Shown piece after piece: positions 2,750 to 28,371 of a stretch of DNA of 53,076 bases. The position numbers were made by a program, and so were the translations under genes. The notes beneath the pieces are model-generated. The model did not search any database and was not told the origin of the DNA. It worked only from the letters and a program-made list of their open reading frames with translations. This stretch comes from Turicibacter sp. (lineage in GTDB: Bacteria > Bacillota_I > Bacilli_A > MOL361 > Turicibacteraceae), in contig WRGF01000217.1 in the NCBI GenBank assembly GCA_009787345.1, forward strand, positions 1 through 53,076, given 5' to 3'. Every line of letters begins with the position of its first letter. The first letter of the stretch is position 1.

Positions 2750-3436
2750 ATGAAATCAAATGAAAAAACAAATGTTAAAGGTAAAGGGTTCTTCAAGAAA
2801 GTTGACCCCATCAGTTTCGCCCTAGTCGTCCTGCTTGGTGCATCCGCATCATTCGCAGCGTTCCAATTGGTTTGGAATGCAGATGCCCCGGTAGTAAGCC
2901 CAGGTGTTGTGGACAACGACGATTCAACCATCCCAGTCGTATCCAACGTGGCATGGCTTGAAGAAGAAGTAATCTCCCCACTTGAAACTGAAGAAGTTGC
3001 GGTCATGACTTCCTTCTTCGATGCAGAAGCAGACTCCGCAGCAGCAATCGCTGACAGCTTATTCGTATTCCCAGTTGGCTCTGGCGCCTATATGTCCCAA
3101 AACTCTTTCGGAACCAGCTTCGCAGCAGCAAATGGCGATGTTGCCAATGTTGTTTCCATGTTATCCGGTGTGGTAACTTCTGTTGAGCATGACGAGCTAG
3201 TCCGCGGGACAATCGTAACCATCCAACACGAAAACGGGGCCATCTCTGTTTACAACGGGCTTTATGACGTAACCGTGACAGGCGGGGAAGAAATCGAGCA
3301 GGGCACAGTCCTTGGAACTACTGGGCTTTCCTTAATGGAGCCAGAATCCGGGAATGTCGTACACGTTCAATTCTTGCTTGATGGCGTAGAAATCAACCCA
3401 GAATCTGTCCTAAACCAACGTTTAGGCGACCTATAA
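2750..3436 (+). CDS. spoIIQ: Stage II sporulation protein Q (degenerate LytM/M23 domain)
   Basis: SpoIIQ is the forespore membrane protein that pairs with SpoIIIAH to form the engulfment channel. The 228-residue protein has a single membrane anchor near the N-terminus (SFALVVLLGASASFAAFQLV), then an acidic extracellular stretch and a LytM-like fold (from about residue 105). The zinc-binding residues of M23 peptidases are missing: the usual HxxxD position reads GTSFAAANGD, and the last motif is HVQF rather than HxH. It is therefore unlikely to cleave peptidoglycan, which fits the role of SpoIIQ as a scaffold. The start is chosen at 2750 after an AGGGGTGAGGTG ribosome site; in-frame GTG 2741 and ATG 2744 are alternatives. 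Terminator 3439-3490 follows. Confidence 0.85.
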   Translation: MKSNEKTNVKGKGFFKKVDPISFALVVLLGASASFAAFQLVWNADAPVVSPGVVDNDDSTIPVVSNVAWLEEEVISPLETEEVAVMTSFFDAEADSAAAIADSLFVFPVGSGAYMSQNSFGTSFAAANGDVANVVSMLSGVVTSVEHDELVRGTIVTIQHENGAISVYNGLYDVTVTGGEEIEQGTVLGTTGLSLMEPESGNVVHVQFLLDGVEINPESVLNQRLGDL

Positions 3437-3438
3437 GA

Positions 3439-3490
3439 TGCAAAAAAGTTGGGCTATCCCTCATACGGGGAAAGCCCGACTTTTTTGCAT
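3439..3490 (+). terminator. Terminator after spoIIQ
   Basis: A long inverted repeat (GCAAAAAAGT-GGGCT on the left, AGCCC-ACTTTTTTGC on the right) starts 3 bases after the spoIIQ stop. It can act in both directions. Confidence 0.85.
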
Positions 3491-3714
3491 GATTTCATGA
3501 AAGCGGAACCATTTTTTAGCGGCGGATTATTTGTAGAAAAAAGGAGAAAAAAGGTGGAAAAATGGTGGTGTCCACGCTCTAATTGTGTTAAAATTAACCT
3601 TAGCGGCGTTTTTATAGGCAGCGGACAACTTTTAGGTAAATGAAAAGATCCGTTATATTTTCCTGCCTATTTTGCCATACTAATATTGAAAAAATGGTCT
3701 GGAGGAAGGTTCTC

Positions 3715-4710
3715 ATGTTATTCTCTAAAGATATTGGAATAGACTTAGGTACCGCAAACGTATTAATATATGAAAAGGGCAAGGGGATTGTCCTTGAAGA
3801 GCCATCTGTTGTGTCATTGGACGCAGGGTCAGGGCGCATGATTGCAGCAGGTGAGGAAGCCCGCCAGATGATTGGGCGCACACCAGGCAAAATCGAAGTT
3901 ATCCGTCCCATGAAAGATGGGGTCATCGCTGATATTGAGGCGACGGAGATGATGCTAAAACATTTTATCAATGCTGTGAATATAAAGGGAATGCTCTCCC
4001 AGCCTTCGATTATGATCTGCTGCCCGACCAACATCACTTTGGTGGAAAAAAATGCCATCCGAGAAGCTGCTGAAAAATGCGGTGCAAGGGAAGTCATTAT
4101 TGAGGAAGAACCGAAAATCGCAGCCCTTGGGGCAGGGATGGATATTTCCAAGCCATCAGGGAACATGATTATCGACATCGGTGGGGGAACCACGGACATT
4201 GCCGTCCTTTCCTTAGGGGACATCGTAACTTCCACTTCCATCAAAATGGCAGGGAACCGCTTTGACCAAGACATCATTGATTACATTAAGAAAAACTACA
4301 AGCTGTTGATTGGGGACCGTACAGCCGAGGACATTAAAGTCGGGGTAGCTACCGTTTACCCTGAAGGCCGAGATGAGGAACTTCAAGTCCGTGGGCGCGA
4401 CCTGATTTCAGGGCTTCCACGCACCATCACCATTTCTTCATCTGAAGTGGAAGAATCCCTTCGCGAATCTGTCCGCATCATCGTCCATGCGACGAAAAAC
4501 GTGTTGGAGCAAACACCACCGGAACTTTCCGCCGACATTATGAACAAAGGGATTGTCCTAACAGGTGGCGGGGCACTCCTTCATGGCCTAGACCAACTGT
4601 TGACCGAAGAACTTCACGTCCCAGTATTCGTTGCCGACAACCCACTTCACTGTGTAGTTGTTGGAACCGGAATCATGCTAGACCACATCGACAAAATCCG
4701 TCGTCGTTAG
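3715..4710 (+). CDS. mbl: MreB-family actin homologue Mbl
   Basis: Cytoskeletal ATPase that guides lateral cell-wall synthesis in rod-shaped cells. It is 331 residues, the full family length. The N-terminus reads MLFSKDIGIDLGTANVLIY (actin phosphate-1 motif), followed by ICCPTNIT and the adenosine motifs DIGGGTTDIAVLS and VLTGGGALLHGL. Closest resemblance by eye is to Bacillus Mbl rather than MreB, and the place after spoIIQ supports this. Start ATG 3715 has GGAGG 8 bases upstream; the frame is open upstream to 3640 but that part is not MreB-like. In Bacillus spoIIID lies immediately upstream; here the gap holds no HTH gene. Confidence 0.95.
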   Translation: MLFSKDIGIDLGTANVLIYEKGKGIVLEEPSVVSLDAGSGRMIAAGEEARQMIGRTPGKIEVIRPMKDGVIADIEATEMMLKHFINAVNIKGMLSQPSIMICCPTNITLVEKNAIREAAEKCGAREVIIEEEPKIAALGAGMDISKPSGNMIIDIGGGTTDIAVLSLGDIVTSTSIKMAGNRFDQDIIDYIKKNYKLLIGDRTAEDIKVGVATVYPEGRDEELQVRGRDLISGLPRTITISSSEVEESLRESVRIIVHATKNVLEQTPPELSADIMNKGIVLTGGGALLHGLDQLLTEELHVPVFVADNPLHCVVVGTGIMLDHIDKIRRR

Positions 4711-4757: not shown

Positions 4758-4832
4758 ATGTTCTGGAATGTTTTTGTTAGGCATGATTTCCATGGATGTT
4801 CTAGGACAACCCATGTTTTTATTTTTAACACG

Positions 4833-4924
4833 CACCTTCCATTCGGGAGGAGAGAAGAACTAGGCCCTCCGAACCGTTGATTCATGGAGCAGCCCGAAGT
4901 TAGAATAAATTTGAATGGAAGGTG
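4833..4924 (+). promoter_or_regulatory. Structured leader that can mask the rarA ribosome site
   Basis: Bases 4833-4844 (CACCTTCCATTC) are the exact reverse complement of 4913-4924, a 12-bp closing stem. The right arm contains the rarA Shine-Dalgarno (GGAAGGTGGG). Inside lies a second hairpin (GGGAGG at 4845-4850 with CCTCC near 4866). If transcribed as one RNA, the closing stem would hide the ribosome site, as in translational riboswitches or autoregulatory leaders. I do not recognise a known RNA family here. Regulation is inference. Confidence 0.45.
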
Positions 4925-4934
4925 GGTTTACCTC

Positions 4935-6197
4935 ATGAAACCTTTGGCAGATTTGATTCGCCCTTACACCCTTGATGATGTTGTTGGCCAGTCCCATTTA
5001 ATCGGTGAAGGCCAAATCCTCCGAAAGTTGATTGAAGCCAACCATATCCCAAACCTGATATTTTATGGGCCGTCGGGGACGGGAAAAACCACCCTTGCCA
5101 ACATTATTGCCAGGATGTCCAACAAGAAAATCCATAAGCTCAATGCGACGGAAGCCAATACCGCTGACATCAAGGAAGTGATTGGCTCTATCCATACCCT
5201 TGAAGGCTCCAATGGGATTTTGCTTTACCTTGACGAGATTCAGAATTTTAATAAAAAACAGCAGCAGTCCATTTTGAAATACATCGAAACCGGGGAAATC
5301 ACCCTCATTGCCAGCACGACGGAAAATCCCTACTTTACCATTTTCAGTGCGATTTTGAGCCGTTCCACCATTTTGGAATTTCATGCCCTGACCCCTGATG
5401 ATGTGGAATCAGGCTTGAAACGGGGGGCAGAGTTAGTCCAAGAGGAATTTTTCCTGAATTCCTTTCAAATGGAGGAAGGGGCTTTGGCATACATCGCAAA
5501 AGTGTCCAATGGTGATTTGCGCCGGGCGCTGAATGCCCTGGAAATTGCCCTTTACCCCCACACCCGCGAGAAGGATTTTGTGCTGACCAAGGAATGGGCG
5601 AAGGAATGTACGGTGACGGCCGGATTTGCCTATGACCGGTTTGGCGACCAGCATTATGATACCCTCAGTGCGTTCCAAAAGTCCATCCGGGGCAGCGACC
5701 CAGATGCTTCCATCCATTATTTGGCGAGGCTCATCAAAGCAGGCGACCTTCTTTCCATCTGCCGAAGGCTTTTAGTGATTGCCGCTGAGGATATAGGTCT
5801 TGCTTATCCACAGGCCATCGGCATCGTGAAATCCTGTACGGATGCCGCCCAGCAGCTAGGGTTTCCCGAAGCCAGAATCCCTCTTGCACAGGCGGTCATT
5901 TTGCTAGCCAACTCCCCGAAATCCAACTCCGCCAACGTGGCCATCGATAAGGCGCTTTCCGATATCGGGAAAGGATTTGCAGCACCCATTCCGAAGCATT
6001 TGCGGGATGGGCATTACAGTGGGTCGAAAGATTTAGGCAATGCCATCGACTATAAATACCCTCATGCGTACCCGAACCATTACGTTGCCCAACAGTATTT
6101 GCCGGACGCTTTGAAGGGGCGGGCTTACTACGAGGCGGGCGATAATAAGTTTGAGCAGGGCTTCCACCAGTACCAGGAAAATATCAAACAAAACTAG
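4935..6197 (+). CDS. rarA: Replication-associated recombination protein A (AAA+ ATPase)
   Basis: RarA/MgsA is a clamp-loader-like AAA+ ATPase that acts at stalled replication forks. The 420 residues are the normal length. Walker A GPSGTGKTTLAN lies at about residues 39-50; Walker B is LYLDEIQNF; sensor 1 is IASTTENPYF; and the arginine-finger region is LSRSTILEF. The C-terminal tetramerisation domain ends with the typical PHAYPNHYVAQQYLPD stretch. ATG 4935 is chosen because the conserved N-terminus (MKPLADLIRPYTLDDVVGQ) starts there and GGAAGGTGGG precedes it. An in-frame ATG at 4884 would add 17 residues but has no ribosome site. An inverted repeat upstream can pair with the ribosome site. 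Confidence 0.95.
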   Translation: MKPLADLIRPYTLDDVVGQSHLIGEGQILRKLIEANHIPNLIFYGPSGTGKTTLANIIARMSNKKIHKLNATEANTADIKEVIGSIHTLEGSNGILLYLDEIQNFNKKQQQSILKYIETGEITLIASTTENPYFTIFSAILSRSTILEFHALTPDDVESGLKRGAELVQEEFFLNSFQMEEGALAYIAKVSNGDLRRALNALEIALYPHTREKDFVLTKEWAKECTVTAGFAYDRFGDQHYDTLSAFQKSIRGSDPDASIHYLARLIKAGDLLSICRRLLVIAAEDIGLAYPQAIGIVKSCTDAAQQLGFPEARIPLAQAVILLANSPKSNSANVAIDKALSDIGKGFAAPIPKHLRDGHYSGSKDLGNAIDYKYPHAYPNHYVAQQYLPDALKGRAYYEAGDNKFEQGFHQYQENIKQN

Positions 6198-6283
6198 ACA
6201 TGAATGTCGGGTGAAACTTCTTTACGTGGCGGTCATTTCATATTAAAATGGATAAGTCAAGTAAAGTGCAAAGGGGATATTGT

Positions 6284-6517
6284 ATGTTAAGGAAGCAATC
6301 GTTAACCGTAGAATCAAGGGGATTTTTTTATCAATTATCCACAGCTATTTTATACTTGGGATGGATGCTGGTGCTCCTCGGCATTGGAATCGTTCTGTAC
6401 CAGCTGCTCCCTATTGTGATGGAGTGGCAACGGATGTTTAATGACGGCTATGGCATCATCCACGGAGAATGGGTATCGCCGGAAAGCTATGAATTTTTGA
6501 AGCCGTTTATTCGGTAG
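6284..6517 (+). CDS. Small hypothetical membrane protein
   Basis: A 77-residue protein with one long hydrophobic region (about residues 19-43, ILYLGWMLVLLGIGIVLYQL) followed by a polar C-terminal tail that ends YEFLKPFIR. ATG 6284 follows AAAGGGG by 8 bases. An upstream in-frame ATG at 6248 lacks a ribosome site and would add hydrophilic residues. It lies 86 bases after rarA on the same strand and could be co-transcribed. I do not recognise the family. Confidence 0.6.
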   Translation: MLRKQSLTVESRGFFYQLSTAILYLGWMLVLLGIGIVLYQLLPIVMEWQRMFNDGYGIIHGEWVSPESYEFLKPFIR

Positions 6518-6525
6518 GAGCATCG

Positions 6526-6583
6526 TTTATCGCTGAAAAAATTAATTTATCGCTCGATTTGTCGCTTGAAAATTGAGCGATAT
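6526..6583 (+). repeat. TTATCGCT repeat array upstream of fic (candidate operator)
   Basis: TTTATCGCT occurs at 6526-6534 and 6546-6554, a variant TTGTCGCT at 6558-6565, and an inverted copy AGCGATA at 6576-6582. The 23 bases 6546-6568 recur in inverted orientation at 7375-7397 inside the fic gene with a single mismatch. The inverted copy overlaps the -35 box of the fic promoter. This suggests an autoregulatory binding site; the binding protein is not identified. Confidence 0.65.
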
Positions 6584-6601
6584 TTTTTTGTATGGTATAA
6601 T
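6573..6601 (+). promoter_or_regulatory. Sigma-A type promoter of fic
   Basis: TTGAGC (6573-6578), a 17-base spacer and a perfect TATAAT (6596-6601). The start codon of fic lies 28 bases downstream of the -10 box. The -35 overlaps one copy of the AGCGATA repeat. Confidence 0.75.
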
Positions 6602-6629
6602 GGAATGAGAAAAACAAGGGAGGAAACTG

Positions 6630-7622
6630 ATGAAGCCGGTATTCTCAATGAACAATGCGATGTTAAATAAAATGGTTGAAATTTCCAAAGCTATTGGGCA
6701 TTTGGAGTTTCAAGTCGAGAGAAACCTGAAATTACGGAAAGAAAATCGAATCAAGTCGATTCATTCGTCGTTGGCGATTGAAAACAATAGTTTAAGTGTT
6801 GAGCAAATAACCGACATTATTGATGGTAAGCGAGTGCTAGGAAATCCCAAGGAAATCCGGGAGGTTAAGAATGCCTATGAAGCTTATGAAGAGATTTTGT
6901 CCCTGAACCCATACAAGCAGAAGGATTTTCTTAAAGCCCATGGACTCATGACGCAAGAAGTCGTGAATGAGTCAGGCCGATATCGTCAAAAAGATGTGGG
7001 TATCTTTGATAGCAATGGTAATGTGGTTCATCTGGGAGCCAGACCGCAATTTTTAGAGGTTTTGATGGATGAGTTGTTTGAATGGGGGGCGACTGATGAT
7101 ACTCCAGAAATCATCAAGAGTTGTGTCTTTCATTATGAAATAGAAACCATTCACCCATTTGCAGATGGAAATGGTAGGATGGGACGCTTATGGCAGACCG
7201 TGATATTGGCAAACTGGAATCCCATTTTTGCGTGGATACCCATTGAAACGATTATTTATGAGCATCAAGCCGCTTACTACAATGTTCTAGCCCAAGCAGA
7301 TAAGCTAAATGACTCCACTGTTTTTATTGAATTTATGTTGAATGTCATTCTTGAAACGCTTATCGCTTATAAAACAAGCGATAAATCGAGCGATAAAAAT
7401 GAAATCGAATTCCCCGATGAAATGACGGGAGTTGAAACGCAAGTTTATCTATTACTCAAGAAATATTTGGCTGACCATGAGAGCATCAATACCACAGTTG
7501 CAACGAAACTCATCGGCAAATCAGCCCCCACAGTCCGAAAATACTTATCGAGATTGGTTACACTTGGATTGCTTGAAGCACACGGTAGCAACAAAAACCG
7601 AACTTACACGTTAAAACACTAA
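6630..7622 (+). CDS. Fic family protein (AMPylase/deAMPylase type) with C-terminal winged helix
   Basis: Fic enzymes transfer AMP or related groups from a nucleotide to hydroxyls of target proteins. The 330-residue protein has an N-terminal helix with the inhibitory motif SSLAIEN (residues 46-52, pattern S/T-xxx-E-N), so it is likely self-inhibited. The core motif HPFADGNGRMGR begins at H175 and is intact (catalytic His, acidic and phosphate-binding residues). After a short polar linker rich in SDK repeats (about 245-257), the last 65 residues look like a winged helix (TVATKLIGKSAPTVRKYLSRLVTLGLL). AGGGAGGA precedes the ATG. The gene is monocistronic, with its own promoter and a terminator at 7621-7650. 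The linker-coding DNA repeats the promoter array in inverted form. Target unknown; no antitoxin partner gene is seen. Confidence 0.92.
   Translation: MKPVFSMNNAMLNKMVEISKAIGHLEFQVERNLKLRKENRIKSIHSSLAIENNSLSVEQITDIIDGKRVLGNPKEIREVKNAYEAYEEILSLNPYKQKDFLKAHGLMTQEVVNESGRYRQKDVGIFDSNGNVVHLGARPQFLEVLMDELFEWGATDDTPEIIKSCVFHYEIETIHPFADGNGRMGRLWQTVILANWNPIFAWIPIETIIYEHQAAYYNVLAQADKLNDSTVFIEFMLNVILETLIAYKTSDKSSDKNEIEFPDEMTGVETQVYLLLKKYLADHESINTTVATKLIGKSAPTVRKYLSRLVTLGLLEAHGSNKNRTYTLKH
7360..7397 (+). repeat. Intragenic inverted repeat in the fic linker
   Basis: TTATCGCTT (7360-7368) and AAGCGATAA (7376-7384) form a perfect 9-bp hairpin with a 7-base loop. A further AGCGATAAA follows at 7389-7397. Bases 7375-7397 are the reverse complement of 6546-6568 upstream of the gene with one mismatch. 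The stretch encodes part of the linker (TSDKSSDK). Confidence 0.75.
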
Positions 7623-7650
7623 AGCCCTTGCCACCTTCAAGGGCTTTTCC
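7621..7650 (+). terminator. Terminator after fic
   Basis: AAGCCCTTG (7622-7630) pairs with CAAGGGCTT (7638-7646), followed by TT. A 27-base stretch beginning inside this terminator (7634-7660) is identical to 9157-9183 after the next operon. Confidence 0.75.
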
Positions 7651-7676
7651 CATGCCTAAAGAACTCGAAAAAACGA

Positions 7677-7745
7677 GCGTTTATGTCATTTTTTGCGACG
7701 CTCATGTAAAAGAGGGTATCGCAATCCCTCTCCATCAGGTAAAAT
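7677..7745 (+). promoter_or_regulatory. LytTR-type (AgrA) regulated promoter P1
   Basis: Direct repeats GCGTTTAT (7677) and ACGCTCAT (7698), 21 bp apart. A weak -35 TATCGC (7717), a 17-base spacer and -10 TAAAAT (7740-7745) follow. The second repeat starts 42 bp before the -10, as in the three other promoters of the island. This is the expected layout for a LytTR activator bound to one face of the DNA. It serves the gene at 7804. Confidence 0.75.
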
Positions 7746-7803
7746 AAAAATTGCCAGAATATTGAGGGAATTTTTGGTAGATTATACTTGGAGGTAAAAG
7801 GTT

Positions 7804-8694
7804 ATGAAATTTACAAAGATTAGAAAACGATTTAACCAATCCTTTTTCATGGGCTTGGTAACGATGACCATCGTTTCACCCCTTATTGGAATTCCAAATG
7901 GAGTAGTTCAAGCGAATCCGGTTAATTTACAAGGAATCAGCGAGGGTATGCAAGAGGTTATTGAAATAAAAGCGGACTATGATGTTCACACAAAAATGGA
8001 TTTTTTCTCCAATGGGGCTATTCTAAACGATAGCTATTTTGAATCTATTTTGATTCACAATGAAATGGGATATGAAGTTGAGATAAGCCTTCCATTTTAC
8101 TTATTGGAGGAAATTTCTAAGACGACATTGTTAAATATTGCGAATGAAAGTAATGAAAAAATTACCATTTATGGTATTGAACTAATTGAACACGAAGATG
8201 AAGAAGTTTGGATTGAGAAAAAAATAGATGATTCCCCAATAGGGAGAATTTTAGGAGTCGGCACTTTGACGCCGAATCCAGCGATTTACCGAACTACGGT
8301 AAATCGTCGCCCGGCGAGCTTTAGTAATACTTTTGGAACTAGTCAACGTGTTTTAACGGTTGCTAGGCAAATGAGTACAACCTTATCCAGCACATGGACA
8401 AGAACAACGACTGTTTCTCTTAATACAGGGACAGGAAATCAGTCTCCTTGGCAACGGAGTGGAGGACTGGCTCATAGTGTTACGGCTACAAGGACCCGCA
8501 CGCATGTATTTAATGGTCCATCGGAAAATTCACATTATCGTTCTACTGATTTCAGACAACAATTTGAATATGAGCCTATTGAATGGACACAGACACGTTC
8601 TCAAACAACAGGTATAGTCACTAACACCCAAACACGAAGTGGGACTGGTGTCAGACCACATTCTATTATCTGGTATAGTGTTGGGATTCGATGA
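7804..8694 (+). CDS. Secreted protein of unknown family, agr-island unit 1
   Basis: A 296-residue protein with a signal peptide (basic KFTKIRKRF, hydrophobic core to about residue 32, likely cleavage after VVQA). The N-terminal half is acidic and mixed in composition. The C-terminal half (from about 165) is very rich in Thr, Ser and Arg with alternating patterns such as TTTVSLNTGTGNQ, suggestive of beta structure. There is no cysteine. It ends SIIWYSVGIR, comparable to the RWYRR end of the secreted protein at 12397. GGAGG precedes the ATG. It lies behind a LytTR promoter and directly before a small membrane protein. I do not recognise the family; a toxin-like or surface-active role is conceivable but unproven. 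More AT-rich than the core genes. Confidence 0.7.
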   Translation: MKFTKIRKRFNQSFFMGLVTMTIVSPLIGIPNGVVQANPVNLQGISEGMQEVIEIKADYDVHTKMDFFSNGAILNDSYFESILIHNEMGYEVEISLPFYLLEEISKTTLLNIANESNEKITIYGIELIEHEDEEVWIEKKIDDSPIGRILGVGTLTPNPAIYRTTVNRRPASFSNTFGTSQRVLTVARQMSTTLSSTWTRTTTVSLNTGTGNQSPWQRSGGLAHSVTATRTRTHVFNGPSENSHYRSTDFRQQFEYEPIEWTQTRSQTTGIVTNTQTRSGTGVRPHSIIWYSVGIR

Positions 8695-8698
8695 AAAT

Positions 8699-9124
8699 AT
8701 GCCTAAAACGCTAGTAGGTATTTTCCTACATGCACTAATTCTATTACTTGGATTTTTTCGTTGCGGAAATAAAGTTACCTTAGAGTTGAATGTAGACTAT
8801 CAATTTGTAGGTATTGTTTTACCAGAAAGTTATTATTCCCAACAAAGTGTATCTTTTCCTATAATTCAAAAACAAATTTTGAAACATAATTTAGAGGTAC
8901 TGACTGAGAAACAGGGTTGGAAACGTGTGGACTTAGGATCAATAGCTAGTCAGGAAAAAGGGTGGATATCTTTTCGTAATAATCTGTTTGATATTCGTTT
9001 GATTGCGGTGGGACCGTCCGAGGAAAGTTCTGCTAACAGCCGTATTTTTCACTTATATTACCAAGAAAAAGAGGGAAATGTTCTCTATATATTAATCAAT
9101 TATGATGTGTTAGTTGTAAATTAA
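8699..9124 (+). CDS. Small membrane-anchored protein, partner of the 7804 product
   Basis: A 141-residue protein with one N-terminal hydrophobic segment (VGIFLHALILLLGFF) and an extracytoplasmic domain of about 115 residues. Start ATG 8699 lies 4 bases after the stop of the upstream gene and has only a weak ribosome site, so translation is probably coupled. The frame is open further upstream (ATG 8639) but that overlaps the previous gene. A cysteine follows the hydrophobic core (FFRCGN), but it is not a good lipobox. The start MPK, the size and the position mirror the 13065 gene after the second secreted protein. A protective (immunity) role is inference from arrangement only. Confidence 0.6.
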   Translation: MPKTLVGIFLHALILLLGFFRCGNKVTLELNVDYQFVGIVLPESYYSQQSVSFPIIQKQILKHNLEVLTEKQGWKRVDLGSIASQEKGWISFRNNLFDIRLIAVGPSEESSANSRIFHLYYQEKEGNVLYILINYDVLVVN

Positions 9125-9136
9125 CCTTTGATTCAT

Positions 9137-9173
9137 AAAAGCCCTTGTAGGAGAAACCTTCAAGGGCTTTTCC
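9137..9173 (+). terminator. Terminator after the first secreted-protein operon
   Basis: AAAAGCCCTTG (9137-9147) pairs with CAAGGGCTTTT (9161-9171). Its right arm and the next bases duplicate 7634-7660. Confidence 0.8.
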
Positions 9174-9223
9174 CATGCCTAAAATGGATAGCCCTTCGCT
9201 ACTATTCCACAAAAAAAAATCCA

Positions 9224-9292
9224 ACGTTCATGCAGCTTTATCACACGTTCACGCAAAACAGGGTATCGCAAACTCCTCCCATCAGGTGAAAT
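9224..9292 (+). promoter_or_regulatory. LytTR-type promoter P2 of the agr operon
   Basis: Direct repeats ACGTTCAT (9224) and ACGTTCAC (9245), 21 bp apart; -35 TATCGC (9264), 17-base spacer, -10 TGAAAT (9287-9292). The second repeat starts 42 bp before the -10. It drives agrBDCA, so activation by AgrA would give the positive feedback known from agr systems. Leader from the predicted start to agrB is about 120 bases. Confidence 0.78.
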
Positions 9293-9419
9293 AGAAATTC
9301 CTAGAATATTGGGGAATGTTTTCGGTAAATGTAAAAATATGTTGTAATTGGATCATCTTTGTTGTAACCCCTCACACTATTCTGGTACAATGGGAAGTAT
9401 CAGGGAGGGAGTGAGGCAT

Positions 9420-10036
9420 TTGTTGTCAATCGAAACAACAGCCCTGGGTCTGGCTGAAAAAATAGCGACCCACAAAGAACTGGACAGGAAAGCATTCCTC
9501 AAAATTAAACTGGGAATCGAAGTGTTCCTCATCAACCTAACGAAAATGACGATTATCTACGGCGTGGCTTTCGGGCTCGGCATCCTCAGGGAAACGTTCA
9601 TCCTAAATCTTGCGTACTTTTTGCTAAGAAGACATTCATACGGACTTCATGCTAAAGCAAGCCTAAATTGCACAATCGTCAGTTTATTGGTTTTCGTAGG
9701 ATTGCCGTACTTTCTTCGTTCATTTGAAGCGGATTATCTAATGACTGTGATAGGGTTCATTCCCGTATTCGTGGGGCTTTACTTATACGCTCCCGCCGAC
9801 ACGGAAAAAAATCCCTTACTGGGGGAAAAACGAGGAAAAAATTAAGGTCAAAAAGCTTAAAGTGGGGGCTTGCCTTAATGGTGGTAGCCCTGGTGCAACC
9901 GAGTTCCGACATCAGGTTTTTAATCTTGCTAGGGGCAGTCGTCCAAATTATCATGATATTACCAATCACATACAAAATTTTAAAGAGGGGGTACAATAAC
10001 TATGAAAACTATCAAAAACTTACTAACCAAACTTAA
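9420..10036 (+). CDS. agrB: AgrB, peptide-processing membrane protease (interrupted by a -1 frameshift)
   Basis: AgrB cleaves and cyclises the AgrD precursor in the membrane. The zero frame from TTG 9420 (GGGAGGG 10 bases upstream; TTG 9423 and GTG 9411 are alternatives) ends at a stop at 9843-9845 after 141 residues. Catalytic His and Cys are present in HAKASLNC, preceded by the usual LRRHSYG, and the family motif YAPADTEKNP is intact. The missing C-terminus is encoded in the -1 frame. From the A6 run at 9836-9841 it reads KKLRSKSLKWG, then two hydrophobic segments (ALMVVALV, FLILLGAVVQIIMILPI), to a stop at 10034-10036. The joined protein would be about 205 residues, close to family length, and would overlap agrD. 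The shift could be sequencing error, mutation, phase variation or programmed slippage (A AAA AAT). Confidence 0.85.
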
Positions 10037-10163
10037 CGGGGGAACCTTCTTGGCACTGGCAACCGCCTTTTTATGGCTAGGGGAACAAGCTATCGGGGCG
10101 CATTGCCAGGGATTTATTTTTGAGTCAGAGATTCCAAAGGAATTACTAGGGGAAGAAAACTAA
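10002..10163 (+). CDS. agrD: AgrD, autoinducing peptide precursor
   Basis: A 53-residue peptide placed between agrB and agrC. It has the three parts of an AgrD: an amphipathic N-terminus (MKTIKNLLTKLNGG, then FLALATAFLWLG), a core with a single cysteine at residue 35 (GAHCQGFIF), and an acidic tail with the conserved PKELL (46-50). By analogy with staphylococcal AgrD, AgrB would cut after the hydrophobic core and form a thiolactone through Cys35. A ring CQGFIF with an N-terminal tail is the likely pheromone; exact ends cannot be read from sequence. AGAGGGGG precedes the ATG. The stop lies 1 base before agrC. Confidence 0.88.
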   Translation: MKTIKNLLTKLNGGTFLALATAFLWLGEQAIGAHCQGFIFESEIPKELLGEEN

Positions 10164-10164
10164 G

Positions 10165-11448
10165 ATGCTGGATTTATGGATGCATTTTAATCAGTTTAGT
10201 TCGATGATTATTACGGTGGCTATTCTATCCAGTGAGAAACTTAAAAAGAGTTTTCTCGCTGGATGGATAATTATTATTACATTCGTTTCGTGGTTTGCAT
10301 ACGAAAACATCAGCCTTAACATGTTACCTGTGCTCGTTTTGCTTCAAGTGGGCATTATTTTATGGGGAACTGAAAAGAAAATTATGAATATTTGCTTGCT
10401 CATATTCTCGACCTTATTGGCAGTAGTGACCAGTTATCTAAGTCAGTTACTATCGCCCACCAGAAATTTTCATATTGTTACGCTCTCGCATACAATGTTG
10501 ATGCTTTTTTTTGCGTACCTTTTTAAAATTTTCCTTAAAGAAAAGCAACTACACGCGATGCTTGAATCTCCCCATTCCAAAATTATCCTAGGATTGCTCT
10601 CTGCTACATTTCTAATTTTCTATGCGGACATTATCATCGGCTCTTACTTGGGGTTTTCGACAGAGGTCCTTTTTGGCAGAGGGATGATTTTAGCCTGTTA
10701 TCTCATCGTCATCTTCATTATCTTCAAGGCATTCACCCAAAGTGTAAAAAAGGAAAAGGATTTAGAGGGCAAGGTTTTGGAAAGTATGCTAAAAGAACAA
10801 TCTTTTGAAATTTTAAAGGAGCAGATTCTCTCGGCAATGAAAACTCACGAACAGACTTTACGAATCCATCATGATATGAAAAATATGTTGCTTGGCTTTG
10901 AAGGCTATTTAAAATCAGGGGATTCCAAGGGAATGAAGGACTATTATTATAGCTCGGTTCTTCCGCAACACGAAAAAATCGACAAGGAGGAACTTTATTT
11001 GCTTCCTCTTGTCCGTCTTGAAAACATTGCAATCCAAGGAATGCTACGGGGGAAATTGGCGGATGCTATGAACTTAGGTGTCGAAGTATCTTTGGAACTG
11101 GAAGATGAAATTCAGGAAATTAGCATGAATCCCATTGATTTAATTCGTGTTTTGGGGATTTTATTGGATAATGCCATTGAAGCGGCTTTAGAAACAAACG
11201 CTCCCGTCATAAAAATGGCTTTCATTAAGGAGGAAAATAGACTTCTGATTGTCGTGCAAAACAACTTTAAAGGGGAAATTCCCTTCGATGAAATGTACCG
11301 ACATGGATTTTCCACGAAAGGGGAAGATAGAGGGATTGGTTTAAGCAACTTAGCAGAAATTTTAGAAGAATCCGAAGGCGTTCAAGTGTACCACGAAGTG
11401 GAAGGGGATTTGTTCGTCCAACATCTAGAGATTATAGGGGGAGATTAA
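10165..11448 (+). CDS. agrC: AgrC-type sensor histidine kinase
   Basis: Receptor kinase for the AgrD-derived peptide. The 427-residue protein has six to seven N-terminal hydrophobic segments (about residues 13-190) forming the sensor, as in AgrC and other HPK10 kinases. A coiled stretch leads to the H-box LRIHHDMKNML (His235/236), and the GHKL ATPase domain follows with N-box LLDNAIEAAL and G-box GIGLSNLAEIL. AGGGGAAG precedes ATG 10165. agrD ends 1 base upstream and agrA starts 1 base downstream, so the genes form one operon with tight coupling. Ligand specificity is inferred from the adjacent agrD. Confidence 0.95.
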   Translation: MLDLWMHFNQFSSMIITVAILSSEKLKKSFLAGWIIIITFVSWFAYENISLNMLPVLVLLQVGIILWGTEKKIMNICLLIFSTLLAVVTSYLSQLLSPTRNFHIVTLSHTMLMLFFAYLFKIFLKEKQLHAMLESPHSKIILGLLSATFLIFYADIIIGSYLGFSTEVLFGRGMILACYLIVIFIIFKAFTQSVKKEKDLEGKVLESMLKEQSFEILKEQILSAMKTHEQTLRIHHDMKNMLLGFEGYLKSGDSKGMKDYYYSSVLPQHEKIDKEELYLLPLVRLENIAIQGMLRGKLADAMNLGVEVSLELEDEIQEISMNPIDLIRVLGILLDNAIEAALETNAPVIKMAFIKEENRLLIVVQNNFKGEIPFDEMYRHGFSTKGEDRGIGLSNLAEILEESEGVQVYHEVEGDLFVQHLEIIGGD

Positions 11449-11449
11449 A

Positions 11450-12193
11450 ATGTCGGAGATAATCATTTGCGAAGATAGCGAAAAAATAAGAAACCGCCTA
11501 CAAATTAGCGTGGAAAAGCACCTTCAGGAGAACAATTACATCATGTCACTGGGCTTAGTGACCCCAAAGCCTCTGGAGGTTTTAGAACATATTGGAAAAA
11601 ACGATGCTAAAAGAATTTATTTTTTGGATGTGGAACTCGGGGCGGACATAAATGGAATTGAACTGGCGAAAAAAATCAGGGAAGTTGATTCAGAAGGAGT
11701 CATCATTTTTGTGACTGCCTACTCCAAATACGCTTCTCTCACCTACAAGTACAAATTAAACGTATGGGACTACATTGAAAAAGAAACCATCGCCTACACA
11801 GCAAAAAAAGTCTGCGAGTGCTTGGATACCCTTCATGAAAAAACTTTGCAGAAGAGTGATGAAGCCGCGAAAATTTTGACTGTCATTTCTAGAAACCGTG
11901 AATATCACCTTAAACACGAGGACATCCTTTACTTTACTTATGATTCGGAATATCGGGAAGTTACGGTTCATCTCCGAAGCCGGCAAAAACTCGGCTTTAA
12001 CGGAAAAATGGATGACCTCGAAAAAATCGGGAGCAATTTTTACCGTACCAATCGAGCCACCATTGTTAATAAAGATCATATCAAGTCCATAGATGGGCGA
12101 AAAGGGCTCTTGCACCTCCTCGGGGATGAGAAGTGCGATATTTCCGTAAGGAAGTTAAAGGTCCTTCGGGATGAAAGGAAAGCAATGGAGTAG
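11450..12193 (+). CDS. agrA: AgrA-type response regulator (receiver + LytTR DNA-binding domain)
   Basis: Response regulator paired with AgrC. Receiver domain residues 1-125: acidic pair in IICEDSEK, phospho-acceptor Asp60 (YFLDVELG), switch threonine in VTAYSKY and lysine near 107. The LytTR domain spans residues 140-247 (ISRNREYHLKHEDILYFTYD, FYRTNRATIVNKDHI). LytTR proteins bind pairs of short direct repeats about two helical turns apart. Exactly such pairs precede agrB and three nearby operons, which makes AgrA their probable activator. AGGGGGAG precedes the ATG. The 3' end of the gene forms part of the terminator stem. Confidence 0.95.
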   Translation: MSEIIICEDSEKIRNRLQISVEKHLQENNYIMSLGLVTPKPLEVLEHIGKNDAKRIYFLDVELGADINGIELAKKIREVDSEGVIIFVTAYSKYASLTYKYKLNVWDYIEKETIAYTAKKVCECLDTLHEKTLQKSDEAAKILTVISRNREYHLKHEDILYFTYDSEYREVTVHLRSRQKLGFNGKMDDLEKIGSNFYRTNRATIVNKDHIKSIDGRKGLLHLLGDEKCDISVRKLKVLRDERKAME

Positions 12194-12217
12194 CTCTTCA
12201 TTGCTTTCCTTTTTTTA
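12174..12217 (+). terminator. Terminator of the agr operon
   Basis: Perfect 14-bp stem (12174-12187 with 12199-12212) followed by T residues. The left arm lies inside the last codons of agrA. Confidence 0.85.
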
Positions 12218-12218
12218 A

Positions 12219-12286
12219 ACGTTCAACCCGAAAAAAAGACGTTCATGCAAAAGGGGATTGCGGTCAAGGTTATCATGAGGTAGAAT
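12219..12286 (+). promoter_or_regulatory. LytTR-type promoter P3
   Basis: Direct repeats ACGTTCAA (12219) and ACGTTCAT (12239), 20 bp apart; -35 TTGCGG (12258), 17-base spacer, -10 TAGAAT (12281-12286). Again 42 bp from the second repeat to the -10. It begins directly at the agr terminator and serves the gene at 12397. Confidence 0.75.
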
Positions 12287-12396
12287 CGGATTACGGAGAG
12301 AGATTCTAATAAAATAGTATACTTTTTCCGAAGTCCATACACTAGTAAGAGATGCTTAGTAGGAAGGGCTTTATTTTAATAATTGGGGGTTACGAA

Positions 12397-13065
12397 ATGA
12401 AAAACGTATCAAGAAAAGTTGCATTGTCATTTTTAGCAGTTTCAGCTTTACAATCATCGGTTACAATTAATCAACCAGTAAAAGTCAGAGCGCATGAACT
12501 GGTTCAAAATCAATCTATGGAGATTTTGAACATCGAAGATTTGAATCAATTCTTTGGTGATGTCATAGACGGTTCCAAGGAAATCACTAAACTCATAGAA
12601 GGGGATAGTATTACATTTATCATTCCAGAAAAAGACTATGGAATAACTAATCGTTGTGCCAGCTGTTTTGACACGACGATAACACAAGTAAGTTCGGCAA
12701 CTTATAGAGAGAAACATTTATCGACACTGGTAACTTCTTCTGTATGGTCAACTGCTTCCAATGCAGTGCGTCCAACGATAACTGCAAGTACTAACGCAAA
12801 TATGTCAGTATCATTTAGAGGGAGCAATGGTACAGGCACAGTTTCAGTAACAGCAACAGCAGGATTTGGGGTAAGTCAGACTTGGACGGCACAGCCTAAT
12901 GTTCCTGGAAATCGTGTTTCTCTGGGGATATTTGGGACTACTGTTACTATTGCACGTCAGAGAATTCGCTTTTATGCAAGAGCAACGGGAAGATTCTCTC
13001 ATTCGGAGTATCGTAATTCTGTCACAATAAATACTCCTTATGTAGGACGCTGGTATCGCCGTTAA
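12397..13065 (+). CDS. Secreted protein of unknown family, agr-island unit 2
   Basis: A 222-residue protein with a signal peptide (MKNVSRKV, then ALSFLAVSALQSSVT; cleavage perhaps after KVRA). After an acidic N-terminal part, a CASC motif (CxxC) lies near residue 86. The rest is rich in Ser, Thr, Val and Arg with glycine runs (RGSNGTGTVSVTATAGFG), likely beta-rich, and the C-terminus is basic (GRWYRR). Start ATG 12397 follows TGGGGG; an upstream in-frame ATG at 12352 would put polar residues before the signal peptide. Its stop codon overlaps the start of the next gene (TAATG). Architecture, promoter and partner gene parallel the 7804 unit, although sequence similarity between the two is weak by eye. 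Function unknown. Confidence 0.7.
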   Translation: MKNVSRKVALSFLAVSALQSSVTINQPVKVRAHELVQNQSMEILNIEDLNQFFGDVIDGSKEITKLIEGDSITFIIPEKDYGITNRCASCFDTTITQVSSATYREKHLSTLVTSSVWSTASNAVRPTITASTNANMSVSFRGSNGTGTVSVTATAGFGVSQTWTAQPNVPGNRVSLGIFGTTVTIARQRIRFYARATGRFSHSEYRNSVTINTPYVGRWYRR

Positions 13066-13469
13066 TGCCTAAAGAGAGAGCCCTCAAAATTACTTCTCTT
13101 TGTATCTTTTTCTCCATTGCGTGTATGTTTGTATTTACCCTCATCAGAGACAACAATGGGCAAATTCCACTTGTTTTAACTAAAGGACAACTCCGCCAAG
13201 GTACCTATATTGCAATTCATGAAAGAGATGCCTGGGATTTAGGTAGCCCATTGGCAATATATTTTTTTCAGGATGAGAATAATGAATTTAGGATTACTGA
13301 TGGTGGCTTAGAAGTAATATTACAAGGGCAGTTGATGCATGTAGGAAATGGTGTATTTAAGATTGTCGAAAACTATGGTTATGTTATAACTACCAGTTCT
13401 GGTATCATCTTAAATTTAGATGTTTTTGAACCCCGTATTTTATATAAGGAATTCTTTTTTGCAAGCTGA
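13065..13469 (+). CDS. Small membrane-anchored protein, partner of the 12397 product
   Basis: A 134-residue protein with an N-terminal hydrophobic segment (ITSLCIFFSIACMFVFTLI, about residues 9-27) and an extracellular domain of about 105 residues, likely beta-rich. The ATG shares one base with the stop of the upstream gene (TAATG), a classical coupling arrangement. MPK start, size and topology match the 8699 gene in the first unit. I do not recognise the family. An immunity or chaperone role toward the secreted partner is inference from the conserved two-gene order. Confidence 0.65.
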   Translation: MPKERALKITSLCIFFSIACMFVFTLIRDNNGQIPLVLTKGQLRQGTYIAIHERDAWDLGSPLAIYFFQDENNEFRITDGGLEVILQGQLMHVGNGVFKIVENYGYVITTSSGIILNLDVFEPRILYKEFFFAS

Positions 13470-13493
13470 ACAAAATTTTAATCTATCTTTTAG

Positions 13494-13537
13494 AAACCGA
13501 TTCTACGAGTTCTGTTTATGGGAGAGTCGGTTTTTTA
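13494..13537 (+). terminator. Terminator after the second secreted-protein operon
   Basis: AAACCGA (13494-13500) pairs with TCGGTTT (13527-13533), followed by a T run. Confidence 0.65.
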
Positions 13538-13569
13538 TGTAAATACCGACTACTATCTATAAAAAATCA

Positions 13570-13638
13570 ACGCCCATAACAGTTTCTTTAACGTTCATGC
13601 AAAGGAGTCTTGAATTGGCTGTGAGAGTAGATTATAAT
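13570..13638 (+). promoter_or_regulatory. LytTR-type promoter P4
   Basis: Direct repeats ACGCCCAT (13570, degenerate) and ACGTTCAT (13591), 21 bp apart; -35 TTGAAT (13610), 17-base spacer, -10 TATAAT (13633-13638). The second repeat starts 42 bp before the -10, as in P1-P3. With the best core promoter and the poorest distal repeat, it may be less AgrA-dependent. Confidence 0.7.
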
Positions 13639-13647
13639 CATCTCACG

Positions 13648-13689
13648 GACAACAGTACATCTGGAATGAATTTCAGATGTACTGTTGTC
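13648..13689 (+). other. 5'-terminal mRNA hairpin in the leader of the SH3 gene
   Basis: A perfect 16-bp stem: 13648-13663 is the reverse complement of 13674-13689, with a 10-base loop. It starts about 3 bases after the predicted transcription start of P4 and has no T run behind it. It is therefore more likely an RNA-stabilising 5' structure than a terminator. The start codon lies 48 bases further on. Confidence 0.7.
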
Positions 13690-13737
13690 TTGCTAAATCT
13701 ATGGTGTAAGTATGCACACAAAAAGGAGAATGAGAGT

Positions 13738-14133
13738 ATGAAGTACACACAAATCGAAGTACCAGTCGCGGTGAAAACTGCACTAAAAATTATTCCTGTT
13801 GCGGGAGTTGCTTTAGGAATTTTTTTCAGCCCAACGTCAGCGGTATCTGCAAATGAAGCCGTACCAACATTAGGTTATGCTCCAATTACCGAATTGAATG
13901 TTCAACTCTTTACTGTCCGCTCAAATAGTACCAATTTCCGTTCTGGACCTGGGACTGGCTATACTGCTTTAGGACAAGTACATGCTGGAACCAGCTTAAG
14001 TTTGGTAAGGCAACAATCTGGTTGGGGGCTTTTCAATATCCAAAGTGGAGCCAATGCAGGTCGTCAAGGTTGGATTCAAATGAATTTAGTGAATGCTGGA
14101 CCAGTTGCCTTTTCAATTGGCAATGCCCAATAG
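13738..14133 (+). CDS. Secreted protein with bacterial SH3 (SH3_3) domain
   Basis: A 131-residue protein with a signal peptide (hydrophobic ALKIIPVAGVALGIFFSP, likely cleavage at AVSANEA, about residue 38). The mature part is a single SH3_3 domain with the typical NFRSGPGTGYTALGQV (about residues 62-77) and GWGLFNI and GWIQM strands. Such domains usually bind cell-wall peptides or support autolysins; no catalytic domain is present. Start ATG 13738 follows AAAGGAG. It is driven by the LytTR-type promoter P4 and carries a 5'-terminal RNA hairpin, so it is a probable member of the agr regulon. A terminator follows. Confidence 0.82.
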   Translation: MKYTQIEVPVAVKTALKIIPVAGVALGIFFSPTSAVSANEAVPTLGYAPITELNVQLFTVRSNSTNFRSGPGTGYTALGQVHAGTSLSLVRQQSGWGLFNIQSGANAGRQGWIQMNLVNAGPVAFSIGNAQ

Positions 14134-14161
14134 TAGTAGAGCAAGAAAGCTAAATTAGCAT

Positions 14162-14193
14162 ACTAAAAAAGGAGCGCTTGCTTCTTTTTTAGT
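14162..14193 (+). terminator. Terminator after the SH3 gene
   Basis: ACTAAAAAAGGAGC pairs with GCTTCTTTTTTAGT around a short loop, with one mismatch. Incomplete termination would let transcripts continue into the lipoprotein gene. Confidence 0.7.
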
Positions 14194-14228
14194 ATTCCAA
14201 GCAAATGATAAGAGGGAGGAAATTGCCT

Positions 14229-16637: not shown

Positions 16638-17261
16638 TTATGCTAAGGGCACCTCTTGATAGGAAGTGTCCCCTTCTTCAATTTCAACTTTTCCTTGGGT
16701 TAAATCCGTTAGCCATCCCATAAATTCATTGCCAGCCTCTACTTCCAACTTAACATTTTCCCCGTATTGCACATCCTTTAATACGTAAGGGCTCCCCTCA
16801 AGCCTATTTTGCAAAGTTGCCAAAAGGGGGTACTCAGTATGGACGAAAAACGTCTTCATGGTTTTTCGTTGCACCAAACCGATGGCTTTCAAGGCTTCTG
16901 ACACCGCTTTCCCATAAGTGCGGATTAGCCCGCCAGCTCCCAGTTTAATGCCCCCAAAGTAGCGGGTCACCACCACGGAGGTATTTTTAATGCCCTGTTT
17001 GCGAAGCACCTCAAGCATGGGAACCCCGGCAGTGCCACTAGGCTCCCCATCATCATTGGCCCGCTGGGTTTCATTGTTATCGCCGATTTGGTAAGCCGAA
17101 CAATTATGATTGGCATTATAATGGAGCTTCTTGATTCCCTTAATGAAATCCTGGGCCTCGGCATCGCTATAAACACGCTTCACATGGCAAATGAAGCGGG
17201 ACTTGTCCACAATAATTTCATGCTCCCCATCATGGGCAGCCATTAAATAGGGTTCTTTCAT
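16638..17261 (-). CDS. yigZ: YigZ/YvyE family protein (IMPACT N-terminal domain)
   Basis: A 207-residue member of the UPF0029/IMPACT family. The N-terminal domain carries the conserved NCSAYQIG, DDGEPSGTAGVPMLEVL and VVTRYFGGIKLGAGGLIRTYG. The C-terminal domain (about 140-207) is a small EF-G-like fold. The molecular role is not established; relatives in eukaryotes regulate Gcn2. ATG 17261 on the minus strand is preceded by a GGAGG ribosome site. In Bacillus the homologue yvyE also lies in the comFA/hpf region. Gene end meets the bidirectional terminator. Confidence 0.93.
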   Translation of the reverse strand: MKEPYLMAAHDGEHEIIVDKSRFICHVKRVYSDAEAQDFIKGIKKLHYNANHNCSAYQIGDNNETQRANDDGEPSGTAGVPMLEVLRKQGIKNTSVVVTRYFGGIKLGAGGLIRTYGKAVSEALKAIGLVQRKTMKTFFVHTEYPLLATLQNRLEGSPYVLKDVQYGENVKLEVEAGNEFMGWLTDLTQGKVEIEEGDTSYQEVPLA

Positions 17262-17572
17262 TGAATGTTTCCTCCCTTAATAAAAAGTGCAGTAAGCCCG
17301 TCTGCGGAGAGTTAAAATTTGTGCCTGGAATGGCATTGAATCTGGGTGGGTTTCCCAGAAGCGATGACATTTATCACCCCACTAATTGTGGAAACCTTCC
17401 TTACGGAAGGGCGGGAATCCCAGGGTCAGGTTTTAACTCGGAGTGGCTTGCGGAACTAGATTGACTTCCATAAATAATACCTCAATCATACCATAAAAAT
17501 CGGTTTTTTTCCAAAACAGGCAGGAATTTTTGCCCCTTTGGCGTATGTTATAGGCTAAAGGATGTGTTAGAT
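17262..17572. other. Intergenic stretch, divergent yigZ/comFA, with inverted repeats
   Basis: No gene I can support. An open frame of 67 codons (17261-17464, +) lacks a ribosome site and any family resemblance. The segment 17390-17430 holds a short hairpin (CCTTCC TTA CGGAAGG) followed by GGGAATCCCAGGGTC. Its texture recalls the 3' ends of IS200/IS605 elements with their guide RNA, but no tnpB can be read. The promoters for yigZ and comFA must lie here. Confidence 0.35.
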
Positions 17573-18904
17573 ATGGATATTTATGGACGTGAGTGGTTGG
17601 AAGGAGAGTTTCAGGAAATCCTTCAAACGGGAATTTTGACGAGCGATGATGTTGTTAGGGTAAAGGGCGTTGATGGACAGTGCAACCGCTGTTTTAACGT
17701 AGACCCGACCCGGTTCGGAAGCTATAACTCTGACGGGGAAACCGTTCGTTACTGCCGTGTTTGCTTGGAATTTGGGCGGGTTTGCGAACGGACTTTCCTT
17801 TACCGTTCCCAGAAACCTTTGGAAATTGGTGGACAGGCGGGAACCTTGGACGTGGATTTTTCGTTGTCGCCCCTGCAAAAAAAGGCGTCAGCCTTCGCCC
17901 AAAAAACCTTCTTGGACCAGTCAGCCGGGATGGTTTGGGCAGTGTGCGGGGCTGGGAAAACCGAGATGATGTTTGAAACCATCGCCTTAGCCCTCAATTC
18001 GGGGAAGCGGGTTTGTTGGGCGATTCCCCGGACCGATGTGGTCATCGAACTCCTGCCCCGCCTGCAAAAAGCTTTTCCTAAAGCATCCGTGGTTGGGCTT
18101 TTTGGCAACTCCAAGCAAAAGCGCGATTATGGGGACATCGTCGTCACCACCGTCCATCAGCTCATCCGGTTCCATCATGCTTTTGGGTTGATGATTATTG
18201 ATGAGGTGGATGCTTTTCCTTACACTTTTGACGAAATGCTGCCCCGTGTCGCATTGAAAGCGTGTCGGATGGACTGCGCGACCATTTATTTGTCTGCCAC
18301 CCCTACGGCTAAGGACCAGCTGGCCATCAAAAGGGGCGGCCTCCCCTGTTGCAAGATTCCGGCGAGGTTTCACTTAAAGCCACTGGATGTCCCTAAGTTT
18401 TACTGGTTGGGGAATTTCAAGAAAAAGCTTCAAAAAAATCAGTTGCCGAACCCCTTGAAAAAATGGCTCAAAGGAAAGTTGGCAGACGAAAGGCGGGCGC
18501 TCTTATTTGTACCCACCATTGCAAGCGGGCAAAAACTTCAGGGCATCCTTGAAAAAGAATTGGGGGAGCCTGTCAAGTTTGTTTTTTCAAGCGACCCCCT
18601 CCGGGCAGAGAAGGTCAAAGCCTATAAAGAAGGGGAAGGGCAGTTTTTAATGACCACCATGATTCTTGAACGGGGGGTGACCATTCCTGACATTGACGTG
18701 GCGGTGATTGATGCTGGAAATGCTGTTTACGAAGAAAGCGCCTTGGTGCAAATCAGTGGGCGGGTAGGGCGGTCCCCAAAATTTCCTAGCGGTGAAATCG
18801 CCTTTTTCCATTATGGGAGAACCTTAGCGATGGAAAGTGCCCGTGACCAAATCCAGGGTATGAACCACCAGGCCATGAAGGAGGGAATATTATGCCTTGC
18901 TTGA
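17573..18904 (+). CDS. comFA: Competence DNA helicase ComFA
   Basis: ATP-dependent helicase/translocase that pulls single-stranded DNA into the cell during transformation. The 443-residue protein has the ComFA zinc finger (CNRC about residues 39-42, CRVC about 63-66). The superfamily 2 helicase core includes Walker A AVCGAGKTE, the DEVD box, motif III YLSATPT, and C-terminal motifs TTMILERGVTIP and QISGRVGRS. ATG 17573 is chosen because AAAGGA lies 11 bases upstream; GTG 17564 is an alternative. comFC overlaps its end by 13 bases. Whether the cell is competent is unknown, since comFC is incomplete. Confidence 0.93.
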   Translation: MDIYGREWLEGEFQEILQTGILTSDDVVRVKGVDGQCNRCFNVDPTRFGSYNSDGETVRYCRVCLEFGRVCERTFLYRSQKPLEIGGQAGTLDVDFSLSPLQKKASAFAQKTFLDQSAGMVWAVCGAGKTEMMFETIALALNSGKRVCWAIPRTDVVIELLPRLQKAFPKASVVGLFGNSKQKRDYGDIVVTTVHQLIRFHHAFGLMIIDEVDAFPYTFDEMLPRVALKACRMDCATIYLSATPTAKDQLAIKRGGLPCCKIPARFHLKPLDVPKFYWLGNFKKKLQKNQLPNPLKKWLKGKLADERRALLFVPTIASGQKLQGILEKELGEPVKFVFSSDPLRAEKVKAYKEGEGQFLMTTMILERGVTIPDIDVAVIDAGNAVYEESALVQISGRVGRSPKFPSGEIAFFHYGRTLAMESARDQIQGMNHQAMKEGILCLA

Positions 18905-19263
18905 GCTGTCATGAACCCATTGAAATCAGCGGCTTTTTCATGGTGTTTTCGTTGACAGACCCTCTTTTATGCGGGCGTTGCCAAAAGCATCTGAAAACAG
19001 GGGTTGGAACCCGGATTTTTGAGGATAATGAATGGATGCGCCAGCAGCTTCACCGCCTGGAACTAGGGGATGTGGCCCTGCTCCCAATTTTTCAACCCAT
19101 CTTAAAAAAGCGGCTATCCGGTCATTTCAAAAAAGGGGAGGTCGTAGCAGGTAGCCAAAGCGAGTGGCTTAATTTCTTGATAGAAATGCTGCAAGATAAA
19201 TCAGGAATGCCAAAAGTAAGCCTGTGCATCGAAGGGGAAGGAGGCGATTTTTCGATTGTGTGA
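18892..19263 (+). CDS. comFC: ComFC N-terminal part only (truncated competence protein)
   Basis: Normal ComFC is about 220-240 residues: a zinc finger and then a phosphoribosyltransferase-like domain. Here 123 residues remain. The zinc finger is clear (CLSCHEPIE ... CGRCQKH) and the next region fits the family (NEWMRQQLHRLELGDVALLPIF). After residue 85 the sequence leaves the family pattern, and the catalytic loop and nucleotide-binding motif are absent. The gene overlaps comFA by 13 bases, so it is still coupled to it. I find no obvious frame in which the lost domain continues before hpf. It is probably a non-functional or reduced protein. Confidence 0.75.
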   Translation: MPCLSCHEPIEISGFFMVFSLTDPLLCGRCQKHLKTGVGTRIFEDNEWMRQQLHRLELGDVALLPIFQPILKKRLSGHFKKGEVVAGSQSEWLNFLIEMLQDKSGMPKVSLCIEGEGGDFSIV

Positions 19264-19391
19264 ATGATAATCACTCTCATGGACATACTATAGATGTCGC
19301 AAATAATTATGGGCGAAACGACAGAAAACGCTTTGTTTTTCGGAAGTTTTATGGTAAAATTTAAATATAGCAACTAAAAGGAGTGATTCTG

Positions 19392-19937: not shown

Positions 19938-19939
19938 TA

Positions 19940-19980
19940 AGCAAAAAAGGAGCCCCATTCTGAAAGGGGCTCCTTTTTTT
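19940..19980. terminator. Terminator of hpf (also usable by the converging arsC)
   Basis: AAAAAAGGAGCCCC pairs with GGGGCTCCTTTTTT around a 9-base loop; A and T runs lie on both sides. Confidence 0.88.
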
Positions 19981-20396: not shown

Positions 20397-20623
20397 TTAT
20401 GCTTTCAATTTTTCCTTGGTTGGAATGGACTTGTGAGGGGGAATATCCTTCGTTTCCCGAAAGAAATAATGGTATACCCCGTAAGCGATTAATGCCCCTG
20501 CCAATTGCATGAGGATGAAAACCATCCCGTCGAAGGGGCGGATACCAAAATCGGAATTGGTTAAAATCCTGGCAAGGGTTACTTGGGGATTGGCGAAAAT
20601 GGTGGCGAAAACCGCCGGTTTTT
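20397..20623 (-). pseudogene. Aquaporin (MIP/GlpF-like) C-terminal fragment
   Basis: On the minus strand, 75 codons encode the end of a MIP channel. The second NPA-type motif reads FANPQVTLARILTNS, followed by a last membrane helix (MVFILMQLAGALIAYGVYHYFF) and a charged tail. The frame is closed upstream at about 20624, so the first two thirds are missing. Its stop lies 20 bases before arsC. Aquaglyceroporins paired with ArsC let arsenite leave the cell (known from AqpS/ArsC), which explains the neighbourhood. The fragment cannot form a channel. Confidence 0.75.
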
Positions 20624-28338: not shown

Positions 28339-28371
28339 TATTTGCACCATGATCAAAGGAGAGCATTCAGT

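Follow-up and report, generated by a model that had tools for sequence, protein, structure and literature searches.

The agrB gene in the window, which is the whole of a contig of 53,076 nucleotides, is divided between two reading frames, and the most probable explanation of the break is either an ordinary frameshift that abolishes function or an error in the sequence. The reading that we prefer, with roughly even confidence, is a recent frameshift of a single base in agrB, located within the A6 run at 9836-9841 or next to it. A preliminary description of this DNA had raised several explanations; a fixed mutation and a sequencing error, as was already suspected there, are the ones that remain. 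The source genome (3.1 Mb in 221 contigs) is the sole genome of its genus in the collection that we used.

agrB is split between two reading frames

Reading of the printed sequence confirmed the break in agrB. In the zero frame the site reads GGA AAA AAT TAA, the stop occupying 9843-9845. The remainder of the gene lies in the -1 frame, open over 9794-10033 and closed by the stop codon 10034-10036; agrB is therefore not a single open reading frame. The A AAA AAT heptamer reported earlier is indeed in codon phase at the break. The upstream piece contains a G-x-H-A...C motif, which we take to belong to the catalytic half. The NCBIfam profile NF002210 matched the two pieces consecutively, at positions 12-147 of 210 in the N piece (E 9e-42) and 138-207 of 210 in the C piece (E 2e-20). 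Each piece alone scored below the cut-off of this profile, and jointly they cover the full-length AgrB. This two-piece match places the agrB tail in the -1 frame beyond chance. The -1 frame also aligned with the C-termini of AgrB relatives L046 (43% over 76 aa, E 3e-18) and L004/L051 (45% over 75 aa, E 1e-17), and by our own reading of the alignments the conserved motifs across both pieces are spaced as in L004 and L046. Frame reading, profile and alignments together bear out the premature stop and the continuation to 10036.

It had also been proposed that the -1 frame restores the last two membrane segments. A simple hydropathy scan gave four segments in the N piece and a single window above threshold in the C piece, although the relative L051 has six segments in total. 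The source genome holds one AgrB match.

The gene order is agrB-agrD-agrC-agrA, and all three genes beside agrB are unbroken (Table 1). A Pfam search of agrD returned no match. The operon lies, together with a Fic-domain gene (6630-7622, PF02661), within a patch at 6001-14000 of about 39 to 41% G+C; most of the remaining window has roughly 43 to 52%. Upstream of agrB, 7804-8694 and 8639-9124 were considered as a further broken gene and rejected, since the second reads as a small protein of its own, whose leader resembles that of a lipoprotein.

Table 1. Positions of the agr genes, of the sites discussed within agrB and of two further split genes in the window
Feature	Position	Strand	Description
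agrB upstream piece	9420..9845	+	TTG start (TTG 9423 an alternative), catalytic half, premature TAA; Pfam AgrB PF04647 4-139/185, E 2e-26
Second identical in-phase A AAA AAT	9806..9812	+	Inside conserved ADTEKNP motif of agrB; zero-frame reading required
A6 run (9836-9841) in in-phase A AAA AAT	9836..9842	+	Site of frame change; TAA next at 9843-9845
agrB downstream piece, -1 frame	9839..10036	+	C-terminal membrane part; matches AgrB C-termini and NF002210
Putative re-start of agrB C piece	9878..10036	+	Speculative; ATG 9878, GGGGG at 9864-9868 upstream
agrD	10002..10163	+	Unbroken; overlaps end of agrB -1 frame; TIGR04223 19.2 bits against cut-off of 19
agrC sensor kinase	10165..11448	+	Unbroken; NF046015 E 1e-47, under the 500-bit cut-off
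agrA response regulator (Response_reg + LytTR)	11450..12193	+	Unbroken
arsC, split between two frames	19918-20376	minus	Break near 20075 at three-base run; family matches end near residue 100
M23 peptidase, split between two frames	28342-29473		Break near 28887 at three-base run; coiled coil and catalytic domain in different frames

Relatives carry agrB in a single frame

Comparison with the agrB of relatives had been suggested as a check. We sampled 55 loci, of which 51 matched and yielded 43 distinct proteins. A YAPADT-like motif was present in 42 of these (the first ten residues were dropped before counting); the protein without it (L043/L099, from G005) was excluded from the count. In 41 of the 42 motif-bearing proteins a plain single frame extends at least 30 residues beyond the break site, and the remaining one, L033, stops at its contig edge, so that all 41 distinct relatives passing the site read through it in one frame. 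At the family level, a Pfam search found AgrB in seven of eight genomes, with a stop inside the matched part in none of 11 matches.

The closest AgrB among the eight genomes of the order is 50% identical. A search of genome contigs for a closer relative gave 39 loci, none of them close. Viral contigs held no relative of the agrB locus, a protein search of plasmids gave 13 records, all below 60% identity, and megablast of window positions 4800-14200 against plasmids and phages gave no match. No AgrB relative of solved structure was found by sequence search.

At the break site the relatives have a loop rich in lysine and arginine, frequently written in A-rich codons in the plain frame, for example AGA AAA AAA TTA in L017 and AGA AAA AAA TTT in L040. 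The heptamer A AAA AAT itself is read in the plain frame in several of them (e.g., L005, L006, L008, L016 and L017). We attribute the A-run at the agrB site to this loop, because its residues are often encoded by A-rich codons.

Proposed course of the frameshift

The agrB tail carries no further stop and is nearly as similar to L004/L051 as the front half is (45% versus 49%); we therefore regard the break as recent. Its most likely origin would be a slipped-strand mutation in the A-rich stretch, which is predicted to encode the loop, rich in lysine and arginine, that joins membrane segments 4 and 5 of AgrB. Translation would halt at TAA 9843-9845 and yield an AgrB of 141 residues, in which the catalytic half is kept and the C-terminal membrane part is missing. 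From this missing part we infer a loss of AgrB function. Should the sampled population truly carry the allele, as we suppose, the truncated AgrB would be unable to process AgrD normally, no signalling peptide would be made, and the agr system would be off.

Frame breaks across the assembly

The strongest competitor, which we hold at about one chance in three, is an error of consensus or assembly, with one base of the A-run mis-called and agrB of the organism itself a plain open frame. The assembly is a draft of 221 contigs, and the remainder of the agr operon is unbroken. We scanned 739,619 bases of this genome (G000) for frame switches and obtained 337 raw switches, 50 of which passed the filter. 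Both frames were re-read for 18 switches and for 10 G000 switches from a first scan, mostly also among the 50; the others were judged from the scan listing, in which the upstream tail was often shown in the wrong frame. Two complete relatives served as controls, each over 400,000 bases: G005 gave 105 raw switches, of which 6 passed the filter and one was judged a break, and G003 gave 140 raw switches, of which 3 passed and none was judged a break. Thus, six breaks were judged true in this genome, compared with one in the 800,000 bases of the relatives (binomial P 0.051). The value drops to 0.015 when agrB and arsC are added, a biased count, since both had been picked in the preliminary description. 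The scan is crude, as it missed agrB and arsC, and the judgement of six breaks is partly subjective.

The six breaks are those in M23, L064 at 6937 (A5), L065 at 13190 (A7), L112 at 15496 (G6), L105 at 7020 and L120 at 18030 (A6), and four of them thus sit at runs of five or more. Pfam supported both halves of L064 well; in L065 it did so for the downstream half alone. For L112 the matches were weak and below the cut-offs, those of L105 rested on repeats, and the downstream half of L120 had none. The break in L120 may separate two genes rather than divide one. The locus encodes a tubulin-like protein at 16813-20000 (PF13809, E 2e-62), with a long downstream part in the other frame at the A6 run. 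The single break in the controls, L082 of G005, is at a G7 run near 17505; in this complete genome of the Turicibacter family the run splits what we read as an RseP-like membrane protease gene, and it could be phase variable or an error. Locus L061 carries, at 2991-4088, an open reading frame of 365 residues that overlaps one of 187 residues and has a reverse-transcriptase-like YIDD motif.

Several observations speak against a mis-called base in agrB. Longer runs, T8 in agrC, A7 in agrA and A7 in agrB itself, sit in unbroken frames. arsC and a second M23 peptidase had been described as bearing similar indels in homopolymers; both genes are broken, but by our own reading the shift points are three-base runs (G3, A3), with no long homopolymer. 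The argument that these two genes favour error or decay is accordingly weak, although the five further judged breaks do include A7, A6, G6 and A5 runs. All eight known breaks fall in genes that we assume to be dispensable, and the essential genes rpoB, secA and prfB are whole, three genes being too few to decide between error and decay. The smallest contig has exactly 2500 bases; this suggests a metagenome bin built from short reads, in which errors at A6 runs would be rare. The excess of frame breaks is compatible with real decay of genes as well as with a consensus that is somewhat error-prone.

Two other features of the window were seen. The release factor 2 gene prfB (23388-24485; TIGR00020 1-353/353) is a single open frame with a TTG start, so that the programmed +1 frameshift known from many bacteria is missing. 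Behind arsC, the minus strand at 20424-20606 holds a stretch that looks coding but has no complete open frame and may be the remnant of a gene.

Phase variation and recoding

A phase-variable switch, in which the length of the A-run differs between cells and reversibly turns agr on and off, is improbable in our estimate, at about one chance in ten. There is a precedent in S. aureus, in which agr is switched when a poly(A) tract of agrA changes reversibly (PMC6686034), and the partner genes agrD, agrC and agrA are all retained here. A run of six is, however, short and ordinary in this genome. The first sample of the genome, 214 open reading frames of at least 200 aa (238 kb), holds 244 A6, 98 A7 and 26 A8 runs, and the tract in agrB is thus not unusually long. 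The relatives have not kept a longer tract at the site, and the T8 and A7 runs of agrC and agrA leave their frames unbroken; the earlier suggestion of a phase-variable homopolymer is therefore unsupported. We are equally doubtful of the broader notion that the A-run is a functional switch, with a change of run length or low-level -1 shifting producing a mixture of truncated and full-length AgrB. With such a switch, some cells would make the signalling peptide and all would sense it via AgrC and AgrA.

Programmed -1 ribosomal frameshifting at A AAA AAT would yield full-length AgrB, and the truncated form would be made alongside it. The phase of the heptamer (X XXY YYZ), the stop immediately after it and the open, conserved -1 tail are what such a site would have, and a GGGGG stretch lies 10 bases 5' of the heptamer, a spacing like that of the dnaX frameshift stimulator. 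The same heptamer occurs in phase 41 times across the 214 sampled open reading frames, though, and an identical in-phase copy stands 30 bases upstream in agrB, where a shift would garble a conserved motif. A search for a downstream pseudoknot had been recommended as a check. The fold after the site proved average, at -15.7 kcal/mol, and pseudoknot-free folds compared with shuffles gave z values of 0.22 for 9843-9902 and 0.10 for 9848-9907. Among 300 sixty-base windows at 5-14 kb, 93% are less stable than the 60 bases that follow the site, and z = -1.3 was obtained for a 6-bp inverted repeat at 9842-9882. The split arrangement occurs in none of the 41 distinct relatives. Because the heptamer is common in phase, is repeated upstream in agrB, has an average fold behind it and is absent as a shift site from the relatives, programmed recoding at agrB is unlikely, and we give this form of it very little credence.

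Published data point the same way. In E. coli, heptamers without stimulators shift at no more than about 10 times a background of about 0.055%, and the two heterogeneous AAN codons, AAU included, shift less than AAR (PMC4066793). An A6 run also falls short of the nine bases usual for transcriptional slippage (PMC1088944). Across 1,106 genomes, GeneTack detected frame transitions in 206,991 genes but only 146 recoding clusters (PMC3711429). Least probable of all, and hardly to be entertained, is a split AgrB whose C piece is translated on its own from the in-frame ATG 9878, with GGGGG nine bases 5', and partners the N piece: G-rich stretches are common here, there is no sign that this start is used, and no relative passing the site has a split AgrB.

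DISCUSSION

Whether real allele or error, the agrB break calls for no new mechanism. If the allele is real, the lineage would be a signal-negative mutant that retains receptor and regulator. Such mutants are familiar from staphylococci; for the Turicibacter family our literature search turned up little on this state, and no paper on this lineage. If it is an error, the case is a caution for the annotation of signalling genes in draft assemblies.

Among known systems, the locus resembles the agrBDCA operons (AgrB PF04647/NF002210) of Turicibacter and Enterococcus relatives in its B-D-C-A order, its AgrB and AgrD family matches and its LytTR regulator, and differs in that AgrB lies here in two frames and in the 41 distinct relatives in one. 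With dnaX and IS3-type programmed -1 frameshifting it shares an A-rich X XXY YYZ heptamer in phase; in contrast to those systems, the agrB site has no detected stimulator or conservation and a weaker codon, and its heptamer is common in phase elsewhere. Agr-defective staphylococci are alike in that their agr system is off, as we would expect with the truncated AgrB. The S. aureus agrA phase variants likewise have a poly(A) tract in an agr gene, with reversion shown for S. aureus only (PMC6686034). The closest parallel in kind is given by the S. aureus agr frameshift alleles: 2,997 of 39,174 agr operons were frameshifted, and in 114 genomes the hit lay in a polyA tract of agrB (PMC8768832). Those counts are population-wide, whereas ours is one assembly of another lineage with an earlier site in agrB. 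The agrB case is a single instance of the S. aureus type of agr frameshift, in another lineage.
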